Positions 4,082 to 23,548 of a stretch of 64,000 nucleotides of DNA are shown in pieces. The notes below the pieces were generated by a model, which was not told the DNA's origin, ran no database searches, and was given only the letters and a program-made list of their open reading frames with translations. The DNA comes from an uncultured Clostridia bacterium (GTDB taxonomy: Bacteria; Bacillota; Clostridia; Oscillospirales; Acutalibacteraceae), in the NCBI GenBank assembly GCA_947625785.1, contig CANQPS010000008.1, positions 1 to 64,000 of the forward strand, in the 5' to 3' direction. Positions within the stretch are counted from its first letter, which is position 1, and every line of letters starts with the position of its first letter. A program made the position numbers and the translations under genes.

Positions 4082-5437
4082 TTATGGTAAAAGTGCTTTC
4101 ATAGCGGTTACTGCAATAGGGCCTGCCGAACTTATGCCATATCCGCCTTCTTCAACGACTACTACAAAAGCATATGGAAAATCTTCATCTTTACTATATC
4201 CGACCATCCAAGCATTAGGCTGTTTACCTCCGCCAACTTCTGCCGTACCGGTTTTTGCACAAATGTCCATTCCTTCAAACATATCTTTACCATAATGAGA
4301 TAACATAGTATAATCAAGCATATCTGCAATTACAGAATTTGTACTTGGTGAAATCATTTGATTATAATATTCTGTTTTTGTTTTGTCATTCGTTAAAATA
4401 TTCCCGTCTGATATTTCACTTATAATATATGGCTTAACGGGTGTTCCGTTATTTGCGATAGCCCCGCATATAATAAGCATACTAATAGGATTAACAAGGT
4501 CAGTATATTGACCGATACCGGACCACGCAAGAGCATTATCATCTGCATTTGATACATTATAATTTCCTGATTTTGTAGGTATATCATTTATATAATATTT
4601 TGTATTAATACCCATTTTATTAGCCGTTTCGGTCATTATATCTTTACCGACTTCAACGGCCAGTTCTGCAAATGCTATATTGCACGATTTAGCCATAGCG
4701 GTTTTCATATCAATTTCACCGTGTTCCAACATACAAGTAATTAATTCGCCATTGATTAATTTTGAACCGTTACAAGTAAATGTTCTGTCCATAACATTTG
4801 GAATAGTATCTATTGCAGCAGCAGCGGTTACTATTTTAAATATTGAACCGGGTGCATAGGTAGAAGATATTGCACGATTTATATATGCACCATCATATTT
4901 TGCATTGGTGAGTAAATCGGACGGTATATTTTCGGGGTCATAGCTCGGGGTACTTACCAAACAAACTATCTCACCTGTTTTATAATTATAAACGATTGTG
5001 GTACCTTTAACATTTTCCATAGATTCATAAACTTTTCTGCAAACCTCACTGTCTAATGTTAAAGTAATATCGTGGCTGTTATTGCTGTATCCTGTTAAGG
5101 CATTAAAGCCTATTAATTGTTTTCTATAAAATACTTGGACTGATGTTGCTATATTGTTTGTACTGTCGCCAACGGTATGCAATATTGCCTTACGGATATT
5201 AACATTATTGCTATAATTTCTTGTACCGTTTGAAGATGATGCAACGACTATGCCGTTTCTGTCGTATATTGTACCGGCTCGGTCAAGTCCGCCGCTGCCG
5301 CTGACATATTGGTTCATAGGCTTTGATGCCCATTCTTCTTGATGTATTATAAGGTTGACAGCAAAATATATAAGTCCGATAAAGAATGTTACTGTTAATA
5401 TAAGCAATAAAATAGAACGGTTTCTTGTCCTTTTCAT
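4082..5437 (-). CDS. Class B penicillin-binding protein (transpeptidase)
   Basis: This membrane-anchored D,D-transpeptidase crosslinks peptidoglycan. One N-terminal membrane segment (about 10-32) is followed by a short dimerisation region containing AGTIYDRNGIVVA and then the transpeptidase domain. Its motifs are SIFK (catalytic Ser about 198), SCN and KTGTAE (about 402). At 451 residues it is short for class B PBPs, like mycobacterial PbpA. I chose the ATG at 5437 because AAGGTG precedes it by 6 bases; a GTG 9 bases upstream is less well placed. It lies 10 bp downstream of the FHA-SEDS gene, so the two probably form a dedicated glycosyltransferase/transpeptidase pair. Confidence 0.93.
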   Translation of the reverse strand: MKRTRNRSILLLILTVTFFIGLIYFAVNLIIHQEEWASKPMNQYVSGSGGLDRAGTIYDRNGIVVASSSNGTRNYSNNVNIRKAILHTVGDSTNNIATSVQVFYRKQLIGFNALTGYSNNSHDITLTLDSEVCRKVYESMENVKGTTIVYNYKTGEIVCLVSTPSYDPENIPSDLLTNAKYDGAYINRAISSTYAPGSIFKIVTAAAAIDTIPNVMDRTFTCNGSKLINGELITCMLEHGEIDMKTAMAKSCNIAFAELAVEVGKDIMTETANKMGINTKYYINDIPTKSGNYNVSNADDNALAWSGIGQYTDLVNPISMLIICGAIANNGTPVKPYIISEISDGNILTNDKTKTEYYNQMISPSTNSVIADMLDYTMLSHYGKDMFEGMDICAKTGTAEVGGGKQPNAWMVGYSKDEDFPYAFVVVVEEGGYGISSAGPIAVTAMKALLP

Positions 5438-5447
5438 ATTAAACACC

Positions 5448-7115
5448 TTACTTTCTTTTTACGCCGTAAGTCCTTTCGTCCGAGGCTTTCATAAACGAAA
5501 GAAGTCCCCAAACGGAAATTATACTTGAACCGCCTTGACTTATAAAAGGAAGTGTTACGCCTGTTAGAGGTAAAATATCGGTTGCACCAAATATGTTCAA
5601 AGCCGCCTGAAATAGCAGTAATCCTGCCGCTGTACAGGCAGATATTGAATAAAAGGTTGACCTGCTGCGTAAAATAGAACCTCTTGTATATAAAGCAAGT
5701 CCGGCTATTGCACAAACGATAATAATGGCGAGTACTACGCCTAATTCTTCACACATAACACCAAATGCAAGGTCACTTGTTGCGGCGAATATATACCTCA
5801 ATTCCCCGTTTCCTATACCTACACCAAATAGTCCGCCGCTTGCACTATATGTTAAGACATTAGCTTGTTGATATCCGGATGTTTGGGCATATTCCCAGAC
5901 GTGTCCCCAAGCCTCAAATCTTGTTGCTATATATGGTTTGAAGTTTAATATAACAATAACTCCTATTACCGCAGCAGCTATGCCAAGTATAAAGGCTGTT
6001 ATACTTCCTGACCTCATAAATGATATAAGTAAAAATGTTACATAAAATATACAAGCTGTTCCGAAGTCGCCCATTAGGCACAATGCACCTATGCAAATCA
6101 ATGAAAATAAAATAAATCCTGTAAGATTTTTACTTTTTTGCAATTGATTAAGCGTTGATGTGCCAACAAATATAAATGCTATTTTTACAAATTCAGATGG
6201 CTGTACAGATATAGAACCTATTTCTATCCAGTTTTGAGCACCGTTTTTAACATCTCCGAATATAAGATTTATGGCTAATAATAATATTGCAAGTATAGAT
6301 ATTGAAAATCTATATTTGGCAACAACATCTGTTTTTTCCATAAATTTTATTAGACAACAGTAACATATTATTCCAATACTCCCAGCGATAAGCTGTACAT
6401 ATGCCTGTCTTGTATTAGTTCCTGCGATAATTATAATACCAACACCCGTAAGCATTAACGCTATACTTTCAAGTTCAAAAGTAGCTCTTTTGAATACAAA
6501 TGTCGATATAATATAAAATAGCCACGATATTCCTACAAATATCCCAAATATTATAAATATATCTTTTTTATTGATATTATCACTTAAACTTGCATCAATC
6601 GTTAAAAACAACAAAAATAATGATACAGTAAGCATAAGTAAAAATGGGTGAACAGCTTTCTTATTTTTTTCGGCTGAGCTGTCTGAGGAAATATCATTTA
6701 TACAATCACTAACTCTTTTTAACATAAGATTTTTACTTCCTATGCTCAAAACGGCATTTACATATACAGGAACACTTCCTCTTACAAGTTTACCATTAAG
6801 ATAAACACCGCTTTTTGAACCCGTATCAGAAATAAACCAAGCCTTTTCTCGCCTAAATAATACAGCGTGTTCTCTCGAAACAGTCATATCTTTAATTTGT
6901 ATATCAGAGCTTTTTCTTCTTCCGATAGAATTTTCCCAATAGTAAACGGGATAAATATTGTTGCTGTCTACATCTGCTAACATTATAAGAGGGCGTTTTT
7001 CTCTCCTGCGATGACGAATAGATACATATCCCTCATATACTATAATAACCGCAAGTATAGGTAAAATAATTCTTACACTTATATCCGCAAAATTAAAAAT
7101 AAAAGACATTTTCAT
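5448..7115 (-). CDS. FHA domain fused to a SEDS-family (FtsW/RodA/SpoVE) glycosyltransferase
   Basis: SEDS proteins polymerise lipid II into glycan strands together with a class B PBP. This 555-residue protein has an N-terminal membrane segment (about 12-30), a forkhead-associated domain and then about 10 membrane segments (155-545). The FHA domain has GRR at 65-67, SREH at 80-83 and NG at 107-108. SEDS motifs include QPSEFVKI, DFGTACIF, SDLAFGVMCEELG and LPFISQGGSS. FHA domains bind phosphothreonine, so polymerisation may respond to a Ser/Thr kinase; none is encoded here. Actinobacteria keep FhaB, RodA and PbpA as separate neighbours, whereas here the first two are one polypeptide. GAGGTGAT precedes the ATG. 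Confidence 0.94.
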   Translation of the reverse strand: MKMSFIFNFADISVRIILPILAVIIVYEGYVSIRHRRREKRPLIMLADVDSNNIYPVYYWENSIGRRKSSDIQIKDMTVSREHAVLFRREKAWFISDTGSKSGVYLNGKLVRGSVPVYVNAVLSIGSKNLMLKRVSDCINDISSDSSAEKNKKAVHPFLLMLTVSLFLLFLTIDASLSDNINKKDIFIIFGIFVGISWLFYIISTFVFKRATFELESIALMLTGVGIIIIAGTNTRQAYVQLIAGSIGIICYCCLIKFMEKTDVVAKYRFSISILAILLLAINLIFGDVKNGAQNWIEIGSISVQPSEFVKIAFIFVGTSTLNQLQKSKNLTGFILFSLICIGALCLMGDFGTACIFYVTFLLISFMRSGSITAFILGIAAAVIGVIVILNFKPYIATRFEAWGHVWEYAQTSGYQQANVLTYSASGGLFGVGIGNGELRYIFAATSDLAFGVMCEELGVVLAIIIVCAIAGLALYTRGSILRSRSTFYSISACTAAGLLLFQAALNIFGATDILPLTGVTLPFISQGGSSIISVWGLLSFMKASDERTYGVKRK

Positions 7116-7388: not shown

Positions 7389-7438
7389 ATTATTAGTTAC
7401 TCAAATAACTAAATATATTGAATGGAGATGTACAATTT

Positions 7439-8566
7439 ATGAAAAAATGTTTTAAACCGATTGCATTAGTTATTACATTATGTATAACAATGATAATGTT
7501 TGCATCTTGTGGTAATAAAGCTGAACAAATTTCTTTTACAGACGCTATAAAAAAAGCTGCTGAAATTACAGAGGGAACTGAAACCATTGAAACAACATTT
7601 AATATTAAAGTCGATAACCTCGCAGATGATGTCCCGCAAGAAGCGGCTGATGTAATTAATCAGCTTGGTATTGACATTAATAATATTGTTGTAGGATTAA
7701 AGGCTGATGCTAAATTTAATAGTACTTCAAAACAATCTGTTGTAGATATATATTATAAGCTGGGTGTAAATGATTACAAGAAACTTACCGATATTATTGC
7801 AGCAGATGATGCAGTATATATTAATATTAAGTCTATTATAAAAGAAGCTATGGAAATAGCAAGCCTATTCTCAACACAACAAGGTGGTATGGCTAATAAT
7901 AATATTGATGATTATATCAAAGAAGATTATTTAAAATATGATGCTGAAACAATAAAGAGTATGATGGATGATTATGTTATATCATCAACTCTTTCGGAAT
8001 CAGTAATTGATAATGCGCAAATCTATCTTAAAGATATAGCAGATATTATATTGCCGTCATTACAAACAGCTATTGATAATCTTGGTTCAACGGTTATTAC
8101 TGAACAAGACGGACTTCAAACCTTAACAATTAATAATGCTAATCTTGCAAGTATCCTTACTGAATGTGCAAACGCTGTAACTGATAATATTTCAGAAATT
8201 ATCGATAAGTTAGTAGAGATGGATAATAGTATTGGAACAGAAGAATCCAAAAACACTGCAAATATGTTGGCTCAGCAAAAAGAAATTATTGTCGCAAATG
8301 TATCTACATATAAAGATAAAATTCAGGAAGGCATAAACGAACTTGTTAAAGAGATTAATGATGAGGGTGCAACATTTAATATCTCAGTTGGCACAGGTTT
8401 TAAAGATGATACATTTACTTTAAAAGGTATTGCCTCTATCAGCCAGACTAATGGCGGTGGTTCTGTATCATATACTATAACAAAAAAAGCTGAAACAATT
8501 AGTGGTATTACTGCTCCATCATCTTATGTTACAATAGATGAATTTTATCAAAATATGGCTATGTAA
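7439..8566 (+). CDS. Putative lipoprotein of unknown function
   Basis: This 375-residue protein has a signal peptide (MKKCFKPIALVITLCITMI) ending in FASC, a plausible but non-ideal lipobox. The mature part is acidic, rich in Asp, Ile, Asn and Thr, and alternates predicted strands with amphipathic helices, resembling the large LolA/LppX-like lipoproteins of clostridia. No enzyme motif is visible. I chose ATG 7439, which has GGAG upstream and keeps the signal peptide intact; a TTG at 7418 would add seven polar residues. It is monocistronic, bounded by a promoter and a strong terminator. Function unknown. Confidence 0.78.
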   Translation: MKKCFKPIALVITLCITMIMFASCGNKAEQISFTDAIKKAAEITEGTETIETTFNIKVDNLADDVPQEAADVINQLGIDINNIVVGLKADAKFNSTSKQSVVDIYYKLGVNDYKKLTDIIAADDAVYINIKSIIKEAMEIASLFSTQQGGMANNNIDDYIKEDYLKYDAETIKSMMDDYVISSTLSESVIDNAQIYLKDIADIILPSLQTAIDNLGSTVITEQDGLQTLTINNANLASILTECANAVTDNISEIIDKLVEMDNSIGTEESKNTANMLAQQKEIIVANVSTYKDKIQEGINELVKEINDEGATFNISVGTGFKDDTFTLKGIASISQTNGGGSVSYTITKKAETISGITAPSSYVTIDEFYQNMAM

Positions 8567-19327: not shown

Positions 19328-21277
19328 TTATAAATTAAAATAGCAGTCAAGTAATGATTTGGCGACATTCATAGAGTAAATTCCTTTTGCACCGTGTTCA
19401 ATTACTACGGCAATCGCAACTTGTGGATTTTCAGATGGTGCAAAACATATAAATGTTGTATGGTCAGAACCTGAATTTTCAGCAGTACCGGTTTTAGCGG
19501 AAATCTCTATCGGATAATTTCCAAATACATAACTTGCCGTTCCTGTTAATACACATTCACGCATACCGGATTTAACAATATTAATATTTTCTTGGTCAAT
19601 ATCCGTTTCATTTACAATAACGGATTTAGAAATATTATTTTTATAAATAGAACTACCGGTAGTATAGTCTGTAATATTATTTACTAAATGTGCCTGATAA
19701 CGAGTGCCGCCGTTGGCAATTGTAGCCGTATATACTGCTAATTGCAGCGGGGAAAAGGCATTGTCTGATTGACCAATAGATGCACATATTGTATCGCTTG
19801 AATACCATTCCTGACCATATTTTTGGCTGTTTTCTTTACCGGCAAGTATGCCCTTTGTTTCGCCAATCTCGACACCCGTATATACACCAAGACCAAATTG
19901 TTTTGCATACATATTCATCTTATCTATACCAAGACGATTGCCTACATCTGCAAAAAAATAATTGCAGGATTTAGCAAGAGCACTTTGGAGATTGATATAG
20001 CCGTGTATTCCCATACATCTTAAAGTAAAGCTGCCATTGTGATAATATTTGCTGCAACATACAATACTGTCCTTGTCGATAATATTTTCCTGTAATGATG
20101 ACATAGCAACAAGCGGCTTAAATATTGAGCCGGGTGCAAATTTTCCGGAAAATGCTCTGTTGAATATAGGCGTAGTATTATCATTCATAAGTTGTGAATA
20201 ATATTCCGAGTTTTTAGTATATAGTTCCAAGTCATAGGACGGATAACTTACAGCCGATAAAATCGAAAAATCGTTTACATCAAGCATAACTGCTGCTCCT
20301 GCAATACAATCCGAATAGCCGCTTTGTCTTGCGTTATTTATATTTTCTTCAAGACTTTTGAGGGCAGTGCTTTGTAATTCTGTATCTATTGTTAAATAAA
20401 TATTATTTCCGGCAACAGAATTTTCCGTATCTATGACTTCTATATTACCTTTTTTGTCACGAGTTATAATTTTTTTGCCGTTTGTGCCTCTGAGATATTC
20501 CTCCATAGCTTTTTCAATACCAAATTTACCGATTTTATCGTTAAGGGAATAACCATTGTCTTTTAAATTTGTATATTCTTCCTGCGAAATGCTGCCTATA
20601 TTACCAACAATATGAGGTGCGGCAATACCATTAGGATATTGTCGTGATAAAGTTCTCTCTATTCTAATTCCGTTAATGTTCTGAGTTTTCTCTGAGATGG
20701 CTGCAAGAAGTTCCTGCGATATATTTTCTGCAAATGTGTATGATGTTGACATAGAATATCCACGCTTTTCCATATTGTAGCGAACGGATATAATATTACG
20801 CTGTAAAATTTTATCGTTTTCATAACAGTTGTATCTGTCTGCGAGAATATCAATAAATTTATCTGCCGTATAATTGCCTGATATTCCTATATCTTCAAAA
20901 GAATAGAAATCTTCTGAAAATGTATATTTGTTGTTATTTATATTTATAGGTAATTTATCTATCCAAGTTTCGTTGTATGATTTGAATATATCCATAAGCA
21001 TTGCAATAACGGTATTTTCGGTATTAGGTGTGATATATAGTTTATCTATAACAACATTATAAACATTTTCATTTACTGCGAGAGGGATACCGTTTCGGTC
21101 AAATATTTCTCCTCTTATGGCAGGTGTTTTTATAGTATATTCGGAATACGAAGACATTTGGAGATAAATTTCTTTATCAGTAATCTGCCATTGAAATAAT
21201 CTTTTTGTAAATACTCCGAATATCATTACTATAATTAATATACATACAATAACTCTGATTTTGTGCAAATATATCAT
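19328..21277 (-). CDS. mrdA: Penicillin-binding protein 2 (elongation-specific class B PBP)
   Basis: This 649-residue transpeptidase crosslinks lateral wall peptidoglycan with the Mre/Rod complex. One N-terminal membrane segment (about 7-25), a dimerisation domain starting TPAIRGEIFDRNG, and the transpeptidase domain are present. Motifs are SIFKP (catalytic Ser), SCNYFF and KTGTAE. GGTGAG precedes the ATG, which overlaps the mreD stop by 4 bp. It is the last gene of mreB-mreC-mreD-mrdA. A RodA partner is not adjacent; the only SEDS gene here is the FHA fusion at 5448. Confidence 0.94.
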   Translation of the reverse strand: MIYLHKIRVIVCILIIVMIFGVFTKRLFQWQITDKEIYLQMSSYSEYTIKTPAIRGEIFDRNGIPLAVNENVYNVVIDKLYITPNTENTVIAMLMDIFKSYNETWIDKLPININNNKYTFSEDFYSFEDIGISGNYTADKFIDILADRYNCYENDKILQRNIISVRYNMEKRGYSMSTSYTFAENISQELLAAISEKTQNINGIRIERTLSRQYPNGIAAPHIVGNIGSISQEEYTNLKDNGYSLNDKIGKFGIEKAMEEYLRGTNGKKIITRDKKGNIEVIDTENSVAGNNIYLTIDTELQSTALKSLEENINNARQSGYSDCIAGAAVMLDVNDFSILSAVSYPSYDLELYTKNSEYYSQLMNDNTTPIFNRAFSGKFAPGSIFKPLVAMSSLQENIIDKDSIVCCSKYYHNGSFTLRCMGIHGYINLQSALAKSCNYFFADVGNRLGIDKMNMYAKQFGLGVYTGVEIGETKGILAGKENSQKYGQEWYSSDTICASIGQSDNAFSPLQLAVYTATIANGGTRYQAHLVNNITDYTTGSSIYKNNISKSVIVNETDIDQENINIVKSGMRECVLTGTASYVFGNYPIEISAKTGTAENSGSDHTTFICFAPSENPQVAIAVVIEHGAKGIYSMNVAKSLLDCYFNL

Positions 21278-21750
21278 CTCACCTTTAAATATATTTTTTT
21301 ATTAATGATATAAAATAGTGGTGATACTATAATTGTATATATAATATTTGGTATATATAGGCTTTTAAAATTATAAAAGTTAAGTTCATAAGGAGATAAC
21401 ACAAATGTTATATACAACATAAATGTCACACTGAAAGCGGTGTATATTATATATATAATAAAAGAGTGGATTTTTATTTTTGATATTATAAAGCAAATTA
21501 TACATAAGATAAGTGCATTAATACCCATAATATTTCCTATTGATATATCGACAAGCAATCCGCATATTGCGCCTAATATAATATTTATACCGTTTCTTTC
21601 GTATATAGCTATGCTTATTGCAATAGATATTGTTACTATTGGTTTAGCGTTATAGTATGCTATAACAATAAACTCTATATCGTGTATAATAAAAAATAAG
21701 ATTATTTCTAATATATATATAATAAGTCTTTTTATAGATATAACAGTCAC
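21274..21750 (-). CDS. mreD: Rod shape-determining protein MreD
   Basis: This 158-residue integral membrane protein has about five hydrophobic segments, low sequence conservation and the position typical of MreD, between mreC and the PBP2 gene. It connects MreC to the elongation complex. The GTG start overlaps the mreC stop by 4 bp (GTGA). AAAGGA directly touches that GTG with no spacing, so initiation probably depends on coupling to mreC. Confidence 0.88.
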   Translation of the reverse strand: MTVISIKRLIIYILEIILFFIIHDIEFIVIAYYNAKPIVTISIAISIAIYERNGINIILGAICGLLVDISIGNIMGINALILCIICFIISKIKIHSFIIYIIYTAFSVTFMLYITFVLSPYELNFYNFKSLYIPNIIYTIIVSPLFYIINKKIYLKVR

Positions 21751-22586
21751 TCCTTTGAAAAATTTTTTAAGACAGCAACTTTTTCAACTTTTTGAATATC
21801 TTCGTAAATATCAACAACTGCATATATAGATGTATCATATTCATCATAACAAATATTTGTAATTATGCCAATCTTGATATTTTCCGGATAGATATCACCT
21901 ATTCCGGATGTTGTTATAATATCACCAATATTAATATCATCTTTTGATTTTGTGTAAATTAATTTTACTTTATTGTCTTTTGATAATTCAAAATCGCCGT
22001 TAAGAACTCCTGTTTTATCTGTAACAATATTTTTAACTGCAACCTTAGTCAGCGGTGACATTATAGTCTGAACTGTTGAGGTGGTATATGATACTTTGCT
22101 TATAAATCCGACAAGGCCATTTTCTGTTAAGACTGTATCTCCGATTTCAACTCCGTTTCGAGAGCCTTTATTTATCGTGAGATTGTACCTGTCATTTCTT
22201 AAAATAATTGTTGCATTAGTAAGAACAGCGTCATCTACTTGTTCGGTAATACCAAAATATTTTTTAAGCTGTTCATTTTCGGCATAGATTTTATAGTAAT
22301 TAACTAATTTGTTTGATAAATCAATATTATTTGCTGTAATACTTTGATTTTCATAGTAGAGTTTATTTTTTTCGTTTCCATAAACTGTTATAGAATAAAC
22401 ATTATTTATAGTATTAGTAATAATCTGCTTTAATGGACTTAAACTATTAGCAAAAAAATCCTTAATAATACTTTTATTTGTTATAAGGTCGGTTACTGCT
22501 ATTGATATTGTACATATAACAGTGAGTATTAATATTTTTGTATCATATTGTAATCCTTTTTTTCTTTTATAAATGTAATTTTTCAT
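21747..22586 (-). CDS. mreC: Rod shape-determining protein MreC
   Basis: This 279-residue bitopic protein has a cytoplasmic basic N-terminus, one membrane segment (about 18-37), a coiled coil (about 70-105) and the extracellular two-barrel domain with ILRNDRYNLTINKGSRNGVEIGD. It links MreB and MreD to PBP2. Its ATG overlaps the mreB stop by 4 bp (ATGA). Length and layout are normal. Confidence 0.94.
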   Translation of the reverse strand: MKNYIYKRKKGLQYDTKILILTVICTISIAVTDLITNKSIIKDFFANSLSPLKQIITNTINNVYSITVYGNEKNKLYYENQSITANNIDLSNKLVNYYKIYAENEQLKKYFGITEQVDDAVLTNATIILRNDRYNLTINKGSRNGVEIGDTVLTENGLVGFISKVSYTTSTVQTIMSPLTKVAVKNIVTDKTGVLNGDFELSKDNKVKLIYTKSKDDINIGDIITTSGIGDIYPENIKIGIITNICYDEYDTSIYAVVDIYEDIQKVEKVAVLKNFSKE

Positions 22587-23548
22587 AATACTCTGCCTGT
22601 ACCTTCAACTACACAGTCAAGCGGTTTGTTTGCCATATGGACAGGCATATTTGTAGCTTCTCCTATTAGAGTGTCAAGACCTCGCAATAATGCACCTCCT
22701 CCCGTCAAGGTTATACCATAATCAATTATATCTGCTGAAATTTCGGGAGGCGTTGCCTCTAATGTTCCTTTAATTGCCTCTATTATTAATTCTATGGAAG
22801 GTTTGAGAGCCTTTCGTACTTCTTCCGATGTTATAATAATATTTCTTGGCAAACCGTCAGATAGATTTTTACCTTTAATTTCAATATCGTTCTCATTCTC
22901 GTAAGGATACGCCGAACCAATAGATATTTTTATTTTTTCAGCAGTTGTTTCACCAATCAGTAAACCATACTTTTTTTTAATGTACTGGATTATACTATCA
23001 TCAAATCTATTTCCTGCAACTCTAATTGAATTATCCGTAACTATTCCACCTTGTGATATAACAGCCATTTCAGATGTTCCTCCGCCGATATCAACCACCA
23101 TACTTCCCTGTGCCTTAGTAACAGGTAAATTAGCTCCCATAGCTGCCGCCATAGGTTCAACTATTAGTTTTACTTCGCCTGCACCGGCTTGTTTAGAGGC
23201 ATCTTCAACGGCTCGTTTTTCTACCGTTGTTACACCGGACGGAATACATATAACTATCTTTGGTTTGAAAAATATATTATTTTTAGTTGCTTTTTTAATA
23301 AAATACTTTATCATAATAGCAGTTATATCGAAGTCGGAAATAACACCATCTTTCAGCGGTTTAACAACACTGATATTATCGGGTGTGCGGCCAACCATAT
23401 CTTTTGCTCGGTTGCCAACAGCAACAACAGTATTGTTTCTGATATCAACGGCAACTACCGAAGGTTCTCGCAATACAATTCCTCGATTTTTTATATAGAC
23501 AAGAGTATTTGTTGTACCTAAATCTATACCTATACTTTTAGTAAACAT
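22583..23548 (-). CDS. mreB: Rod shape-determining actin homologue MreB
   Basis: This actin-like ATPase forms membrane filaments that guide lateral wall synthesis. The phosphate and connect motifs are intact: IGIDLGTTNTLVY at the N-terminus, VDIGGGTSEMAVIS, and TGGGALLRGLD near the C-terminus. The protein ends at PLDCVVEGTGRVL, giving 321 residues; family members usually run about 15 residues further (a SLE-type terminal helix). AAAGGAG precedes the ATG. It is the first gene of mreBCD-mrdA with a strong promoter. Confidence 0.96.
   Translation of the reverse strand: MFTKSIGIDLGTTNTLVYIKNRGIVLREPSVVAVDIRNNTVVAVGNRAKDMVGRTPDNISVVKPLKDGVISDFDITAIMIKYFIKKATKNNIFFKPKIVICIPSGVTTVEKRAVEDASKQAGAGEVKLIVEPMAAAMGANLPVTKAQGSMVVDIGGGTSEMAVISQGGIVTDNSIRVAGNRFDDSIIQYIKKKYGLLIGETTAEKIKISIGSAYPYENENDIEIKGKNLSDGLPRNIIITSEEVRKALKPSIELIIEAIKGTLEATPPEISADIIDYGITLTGGGALLRGLDTLIGEATNMPVHMANKPLDCVVEGTGRVL

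Follow-up and report, generated by a model that had tools for sequence, protein, structure and literature searches.

An FHA domain and a SEDS glycosyltransferase in one chain beside a class B PBP gene in several lineages of Clostridia

The window, that is, the whole 64,000-nt stretch of contig CANQPS010000008.1 of an uncultured Clostridia bacterium that was analysed here, encodes on its minus strand (5448..7115, stop codon included) a protein of 555 amino acids in which a membrane segment, an FHA domain, and a SEDS glycosyltransferase follow one another within a single uninterrupted frame. This FHA–SEDS fusion is real; it is the known FHA–SEDS–PBP module in a one-chain form, and it occurs in several lineages of Clostridia. 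That the two domains share one protein had been claimed in the original prediction, and the domain search bore this out: Pfam FHA (PF00498) matched residues 63–126 (E 6.3e-16, 59 bits against a cut-off of 20.7), and FTSW_RODA_SPOVE (PF01098) matched residues 238–540 (E 1.6e-53, 182 bits against a cut-off of 26.4). Because both scores are far above the curated cut-offs, a chance match is excluded.

An AlphaFold2 model of the fusion, built from a 46-row alignment (the window protein and 45 fused relatives), had a mean pLDDT of 86.8 and a pTM of 0.87. The modelled order is a helix (residues 2–34; 7014..7112, minus strand, as for all features of the fusion), a beta fold (residues 44–134), and twelve membrane helices, as counted from the helix list. 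Residues 37–136 matched known FHA structures (VIA-align, best Z 16.5), and the FHA domain was delimited at residues 42–136 (6708..6992). According to the positive-inside rule, basic residues mark the cytoplasmic side of a membrane helix; because the first helix is followed by the basic stretch HRRREKR and then by the FHA fold, the model has the FHA domain facing the cytoplasm after one membrane segment, as had been predicted. The SEDS polymerase core (residues 207–552; 5460..6497) aligned with FtsW (8p1u; VIA-align Z 35.4 over 330 residues of the model) and RodA (6bar; Z 27.8 over about 291–292 residues, model residues 207–552 on chain residues 6–358). The seven listed solved RodA and FtsW chains align only from model residue 203–211, up to residue 551–554; the helices at residues 157–176 and 183–207 (157–207 together; 6495..6647) therefore lie N-terminal to and outside the ten-helix core. 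In other words, the fusion model has two helices more than the solved SEDS proteins. D448 (5772..5774) is the equivalent of Asp255 of Thermus RodA, the residue in which the altered form 6bas (D255A) differs from 6bar, and this catalytic-site Asp was present in 129 of 130 aligned rows, among them FtsW and RodA of the window's genome; the one exception (L102) has a gap in a broken frame, which was left as is. Judging from the helix count in the model, the long loop ending at D448 would be outside the cell, as in RodA. The SEDS half does not have the FtsW-type LPE just before this Asp, a position at which Thermus RodA also differs.

The GRR, SREH, and NG motifs named in the original prediction are all present, as R66 (6918..6920), S80 (6876..6878) with H83, and N107 (6795..6797). 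In the FHA fold, these Arg, Ser, and Asn residues contact phosphothreonine, and R66 and S80 are predicted to bind the phosphate and N107 the peptide. Loss of the three residues in relatives had been named as the observation that would count against the prediction; it was found that Arg is kept in 85, Ser in 85, and Asn in 83 of the 86 fused FHA domains surveyed below, and that the triad is complete in 81 of 86 (64 of 69 after the removal of sequences more than 80% alike), each of the remaining five proteins being without one residue. This outcome is in favour of the prediction. Separate genes were less strict than the fused ones when they carried two FHA domains, with the triad in 10 of 16 first and 11 of 16 second domains (counts that include the duplicate pair L106 and L059 twice), and separate one-FHA genes kept it in 13 of 16 cases. 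The FHA domains of L155 and L156 are identical. FHA domains can also bind without phosphate, and the domain might act as a mere tether, making a phosphorylation-independent contact in a complex and throwing no switch. The loss of one key residue in 5 of the 86 fused proteins and the absence of genetic linkage to a kinase would both agree with a tether; however, a plain tether needs none of the three residues, and these rank 4th, 5th, and 10th in conservation among the 95 FHA columns of 69 divergent sequences (H83 ranks 8th), so we regard this explanation as unlikely.

The next gene (4082..5446, minus strand) was predicted to be a short class B PBP, and it does encode a 454-amino-acid transpeptidase (PF00905, E 1.3e-53) with the class B motifs SxxK at 201, SxN at 254, and KTG at 398. 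Translation probably begins at the ATG at 5437, which lies behind AAGGTG and 10 nt past the fusion stop. A PBP gene follows on the same strand, at most 800 nt downstream, in 79 of the 81 fused loci and 38 of the 40 non-fused loci with enough flank. Among solved structures, the window PBP scored best with 4mnr (106.2 bits), followed by a small margin by 3un7 (104.6 bits) and SpoVD (7rcz, 100.1 bits); the nearby structures 3un7 and 3lo7 are named penicillin-binding protein A and are presumably from M. tuberculosis. Divergent from the fusion gene is a gene for a putative lipoprotein of 382 residues with no confident family (7418..8566, plus strand).

A survey of the fusion across Clostridia, which had been proposed along with the original prediction, showed that it is present in several lineages. 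Among 128 loci, the window included, 86 were fused, 17 had a separate gene with two FHA domains, 16 had a separate one-FHA gene, and 9 had no FHA nearby, in a sample biased towards the query; the 17 two-FHA rows include one broken row and one duplicate (L106, still counted there), and L157, L160, and L032 were dropped as second copies of loci already counted. An assembly artefact was rejected because 86 loci share the fusion, isolates among them. In a set of 40 relatives that includes the window's genome, 21 had a close match (>340 bits), of which 8 were fused, 11 had the FHA part in a gene of its own immediately before the SEDS gene (11 of the 13 non-fused orthologues), and 2 had their only FHA match on a different contig. 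Nine of the 11 separate upstream genes carry two FHA domains (L059, L060, L062, L063, L066, L067, L069, L071, and L072). The separate one-FHA gene of G007 (L065) overlaps its SEDS gene by 8 nt, an arrangement that is likely to represent a step before fusion. In a scan of named genomes, the loci taken (L074–L153) were the 80 top-scoring ones among at least 584 relatives, found with a partly fused query alignment, and hence the fused share among them is not a prevalence; the fused loci among these best 80 of at least 584 include those of Ruminococcus bromii ATCC 27255 (L085), Flavonifractor sp. An306 (L144), [Eubacterium] infirmum NCTC12940 (L108), and Sinanaerobacter chloroacetimidivorans BAD-6 (L133). 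Of 291 genomes drawn from across the class, 83 had a match at E ≤ 1e-60, and a close (>500 bits) fused copy was found in 11 genomes, the window's own included. FHA domains in separate genes were sought throughout with a narrow profile derived from 8 of the fused proteins. Among the 19 of the 72 weaker class-wide matches that were examined in this way, 14 had FHA, SEDS, and PBP as adjoining separate genes, with the FHA gene just upstream, and no FHA was found in 5, whose upstream frames were also read by eye and one of which has masked bases and cannot be judged. In several of these five distant SEDS–PBP pairs (L174, L176, L178, L179, and L183), the SEDS protein starts with a membrane segment that by eye resembles the helix preceding the FHA fold in the fusion, which may reflect FHA loss.

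A maximum-likelihood tree was computed from the SEDS part of 129 rows, with L106 left out as identical to L059. In it, the 19 distant loci fell outside a clade of 108 rows (support 100/100) that contains all fused rows. The fused rows formed a group of 37 that includes the window (99/94) and a group of 48 (97/97), and L143 stood alone inside the two-FHA clade. A single origin of all 86 fused rows was rejected (p-AU 0.0137), with the single-origin group defined after inspection of the tree and L143 being one metagenome-assembled contig, whereas a single origin of the 85 fused rows without L143 was not rejected (p-AU 0.39). Taken together, these two values indicate at least two events: either fusion occurred two or more times, or it occurred once and was followed by fission, possibly in the two-FHA lineage, and a second fusion. 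The separate FHA–SEDS–PBP operon is probably the older state; the root of the tree, however, is set by FtsW and RodA of the window's genome, both of which are long-branched, and the program flagged a meeting of long branches at this point and at two distant rows.

Besides the fusion gene, the genome contains two SEDS genes. One belongs to the division cluster and has neighbours that we take from sequence features to be mraZ, mraW, mraY, murG, and ftsZ; the other lies elsewhere, on contig C3. There is also an mre cluster with its own PBP (19328–23548), in which MreC was identified by a search and the other genes were named from sequence features. The fusion scored below the NCBIfam equivalog cut-offs for FtsW (TIGR02614, 188.5 bits against 337.5), RodA (TIGR02210, 142.4 against 336.7), and SpoVE (TIGR02615, 126.6 against 448.8). 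The comparison covered at most 34 distinct genomes that carry an FHA–SEDS gene. Of these, 29 have MreC and no fewer than three SEDS matches over the cut-off, and the five without MreC have two, the FHA–SEDS and one other, which we infer to be FtsW. The 34 comprise the 21 of the relatives set and 13 more from 15 hand-chosen additions (ten other fused genomes of the class-wide draw and five named loci of the best 80 of at least 584), since G269 and G332 share the same coordinates and G036 is also one of the 21. The five carriers without MreC are G019 (only 59% complete), G020, G024, which has a further SEDS match just under the cut-off, G040, and G328. Because these five have neither MreC nor a third SEDS and yet retain the FHA–SEDS, the third SEDS goes with MreC and the FHA–SEDS does not; and because G040 belongs to family f19, unlike G019, G020, and G024, this pattern arose more than once. 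The FHA–SEDS and its PBP are thus a third SEDS–PBP set that is independent of MreC.

These data also bear on two more familiar assignments. If the protein were simply the RodA of Mre-dependent elongation, extended by one domain, its SEDS fold and Pfam family would be as observed, and PMC11898655 gives a precedent in which RodA and PbpA of Mycobacteriales share an operon with FHA genes; however, a further SEDS gene lies on C3, away from the division cluster, the mre cluster of the genome includes a PBP, the five genomes without MreC and the third SEDS keep the FHA–SEDS, and the RodA score is far below its cut-off, which makes this assignment very improbable. A sporulation-specific pair like SpoVE–SpoVD would agree with the presence of SpoIVA over the cut-off in 16 of the 21 carriers of the relatives set. 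SpoIVA is not over the cut-off in the other five, three of which (G005, G015, and G022) are at least 92% complete, so the FHA–SEDS is not simply a sporulation set; furthermore, G001, G016, and G023 have SpoIVA but no close FHA–SEDS, and the SpoVE score falls far short, so that a sporulation pair is improbable. Both assignments are weakened by these results.

The original prediction compared the locus with actinobacterial FhaB, RodA, and PbpA, and as an operon comparison this is right for Mycobacteriales: PMC11898655 places FhaA, FhaB, RodA, PbpA, PknA, PknB, and a phosphatase in one operon, and FHA, SEDS, and PBP are likewise encoded side by side in the window. The FhaB model aligns with residues 38–130 of the fusion, including the stretch before the FHA domain, and the window's PBP lies near penicillin-binding protein A among solved structures. 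In contrast to that operon, FHA and SEDS form one chain in the window and the kinase and phosphatase are elsewhere in the genome; moreover, the FHA half falls below the FhaB equivalog cut-off (NF049868, 46.4 bits against 125). Compared with RodA and FtsW, the window SEDS shares the fold, the catalytic-site Asp, and a PBP partner gene, but has the FHA domain and two extra helices in front; it differs from FtsW in the stretch before the Asp and scores under all three family cut-offs. A parallel in regulation is found in M. tuberculosis, where, according to PMC3989709, FhaA negatively regulates MviN (MurJ) after PknB action, that is, an FHA domain reads a kinase product to control wall synthesis; there, however, FhaA is a separate protein that acts on MviN and not on a polymerase chain. 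The same source describes FipA (Rv0019c, FhaB) as a PknA substrate. In Streptomyces, suppressors of DivIVA loss map to pknB and rodA of one cluster (PMC13432765). Among solved FHA domains, GarA is second by sequence, after the chlamydial 3gqs, and its fold matches the window FHA model with Z 15.8, just under EmbR (16.5). GarA and OdhI are soluble metabolic regulators, not membrane enzymes. A literature search conducted mostly without subscription journals found no report of an FHA–SEDS fusion, and domain databases may already list the architecture.

The original prediction had proposed a search of the genome for PknB/PrkC kinases and PP2C phosphatases and would have been contradicted by the lack of any Ser/Thr kinase; a kinase and a phosphatase were both found, which is in its favour. 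A profile search of the contigs gave five Pkinase matches, one of which is a PASTA kinase of 729 residues directly behind a PP2C phosphatase gene. None of the five is on the window's contig (C8), so that a Ser/Thr kinase in the same cluster, a trait of the actinobacterial pkn operon, is absent there. Of 131 loci, with median flanks of 3.4 and 3.9 kb, only one had a kinase gene nearby. That one is a small Ser/Thr kinase-like gene (L056:3087-4253), membrane-anchored as judged by eye, two genes before a fused FHA–SEDS. Kinase co-occurrence is uninformative, because all 40 relatives have PASTA domains, with or without the fusion, and some PBPs carry them too. A link between the FHA–SEDS and a kinase is thus plausible, but genome context does not show it. 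The only other FHA match in the genome is at the C-terminus of a protein of 1004 residues (L018:8938-11952, contig C19) that also carries DUF6382, zinc ribbons, and a long acidic repeat.

The C-terminal tail of the fusion (5448..5492) carries a motif of the D-x-R-T-Y type, predicted to be cytoplasmic and a candidate phosphorylation site. A self-contained latch, in which the FHA domain would read a phosphothreonine on its own C-terminal tail or on the short cytoplasmic tail of the PBP, would account for the occurrence of [RK]T[YFWH] in the cytoplasmic C-tail of 34 of the 37 fused proteins of the window's clade and for the fact that several partner PBPs start with MKRT or similar. The motif is found in just 1 of the 48 fused proteins of the other large clade, however, and conservation beside a membrane helix has other causes, leaving this arrangement only a slight chance; the C-tail Thr as a general FHA ligand was rejected on the former count. 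The motif also occurs in 10 of the 17 two-FHA rows.

The explanation that we favour, and consider moderately probable from the sequences compared here, is that a third SEDS–PBP synthase is recruited or allosterically tuned through its FHA domain by a phosphothreonine partner. The gene pair would encode a peptidoglycan synthase apart from the division FtsW set and the Mre/RodA/PBP2 elongation set, in which the SEDS half would polymerise lipid II on the outer side of the membrane and the short PBP encoded next to it would crosslink the product. The FHA domain, anchored by its helix at the inner face of the membrane, would bind phosphothreonine that the PASTA kinase makes, either in its own chain or in a membrane protein; this binding would recruit or allosterically tune the synthase, affecting perhaps its activity rather than its location, and the PP2C phosphatase would reset the state. 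The fusion gene would descend by gene fusion from the older FHA–SEDS–PBP operon. Gene neighbours that later fuse usually act together, and a joint function is favoured because FHA and SEDS are adjoining genes in relatives and were later fused. Against a phosphothreonine-gated synthase, the 9 surveyed loci with no FHA nearby have a related SEDS–PBP pair; the unlinked kinase, the five fused FHA domains without one key residue, the less strict triad of the two-FHA relatives, and the missing LPE also count against it. The interpretation given in the original prediction, namely, that glycan polymerisation can be switched by a phosphothreonine partner, is therefore partly supported.

It is, to our knowledge, an open question how PASTA-type kinases steer wall synthesis in Gram-positive bacteria. 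In the FHA–SEDS protein, a predicted phosphothreonine reader and a wall polymerase are one polypeptide, and the fusion, which is found in several gut genera, Ruminococcus bromii included, marks a third SEDS–PBP set. A bolder proposal, which we put forward tentatively, is that the polymerase itself is the phosphothreonine receptor, such that binding of the kinase product by the FHA domain would directly alter polymerisation within one chain, and that gut Clostridia may possess a third, Mre-independent, kinase-controlled synthase that several lineages kept after the loss of RodA and MreC. The arrangement of the two domains suggests that kinase signals may act directly on wall synthesis through the FHA–SEDS protein.
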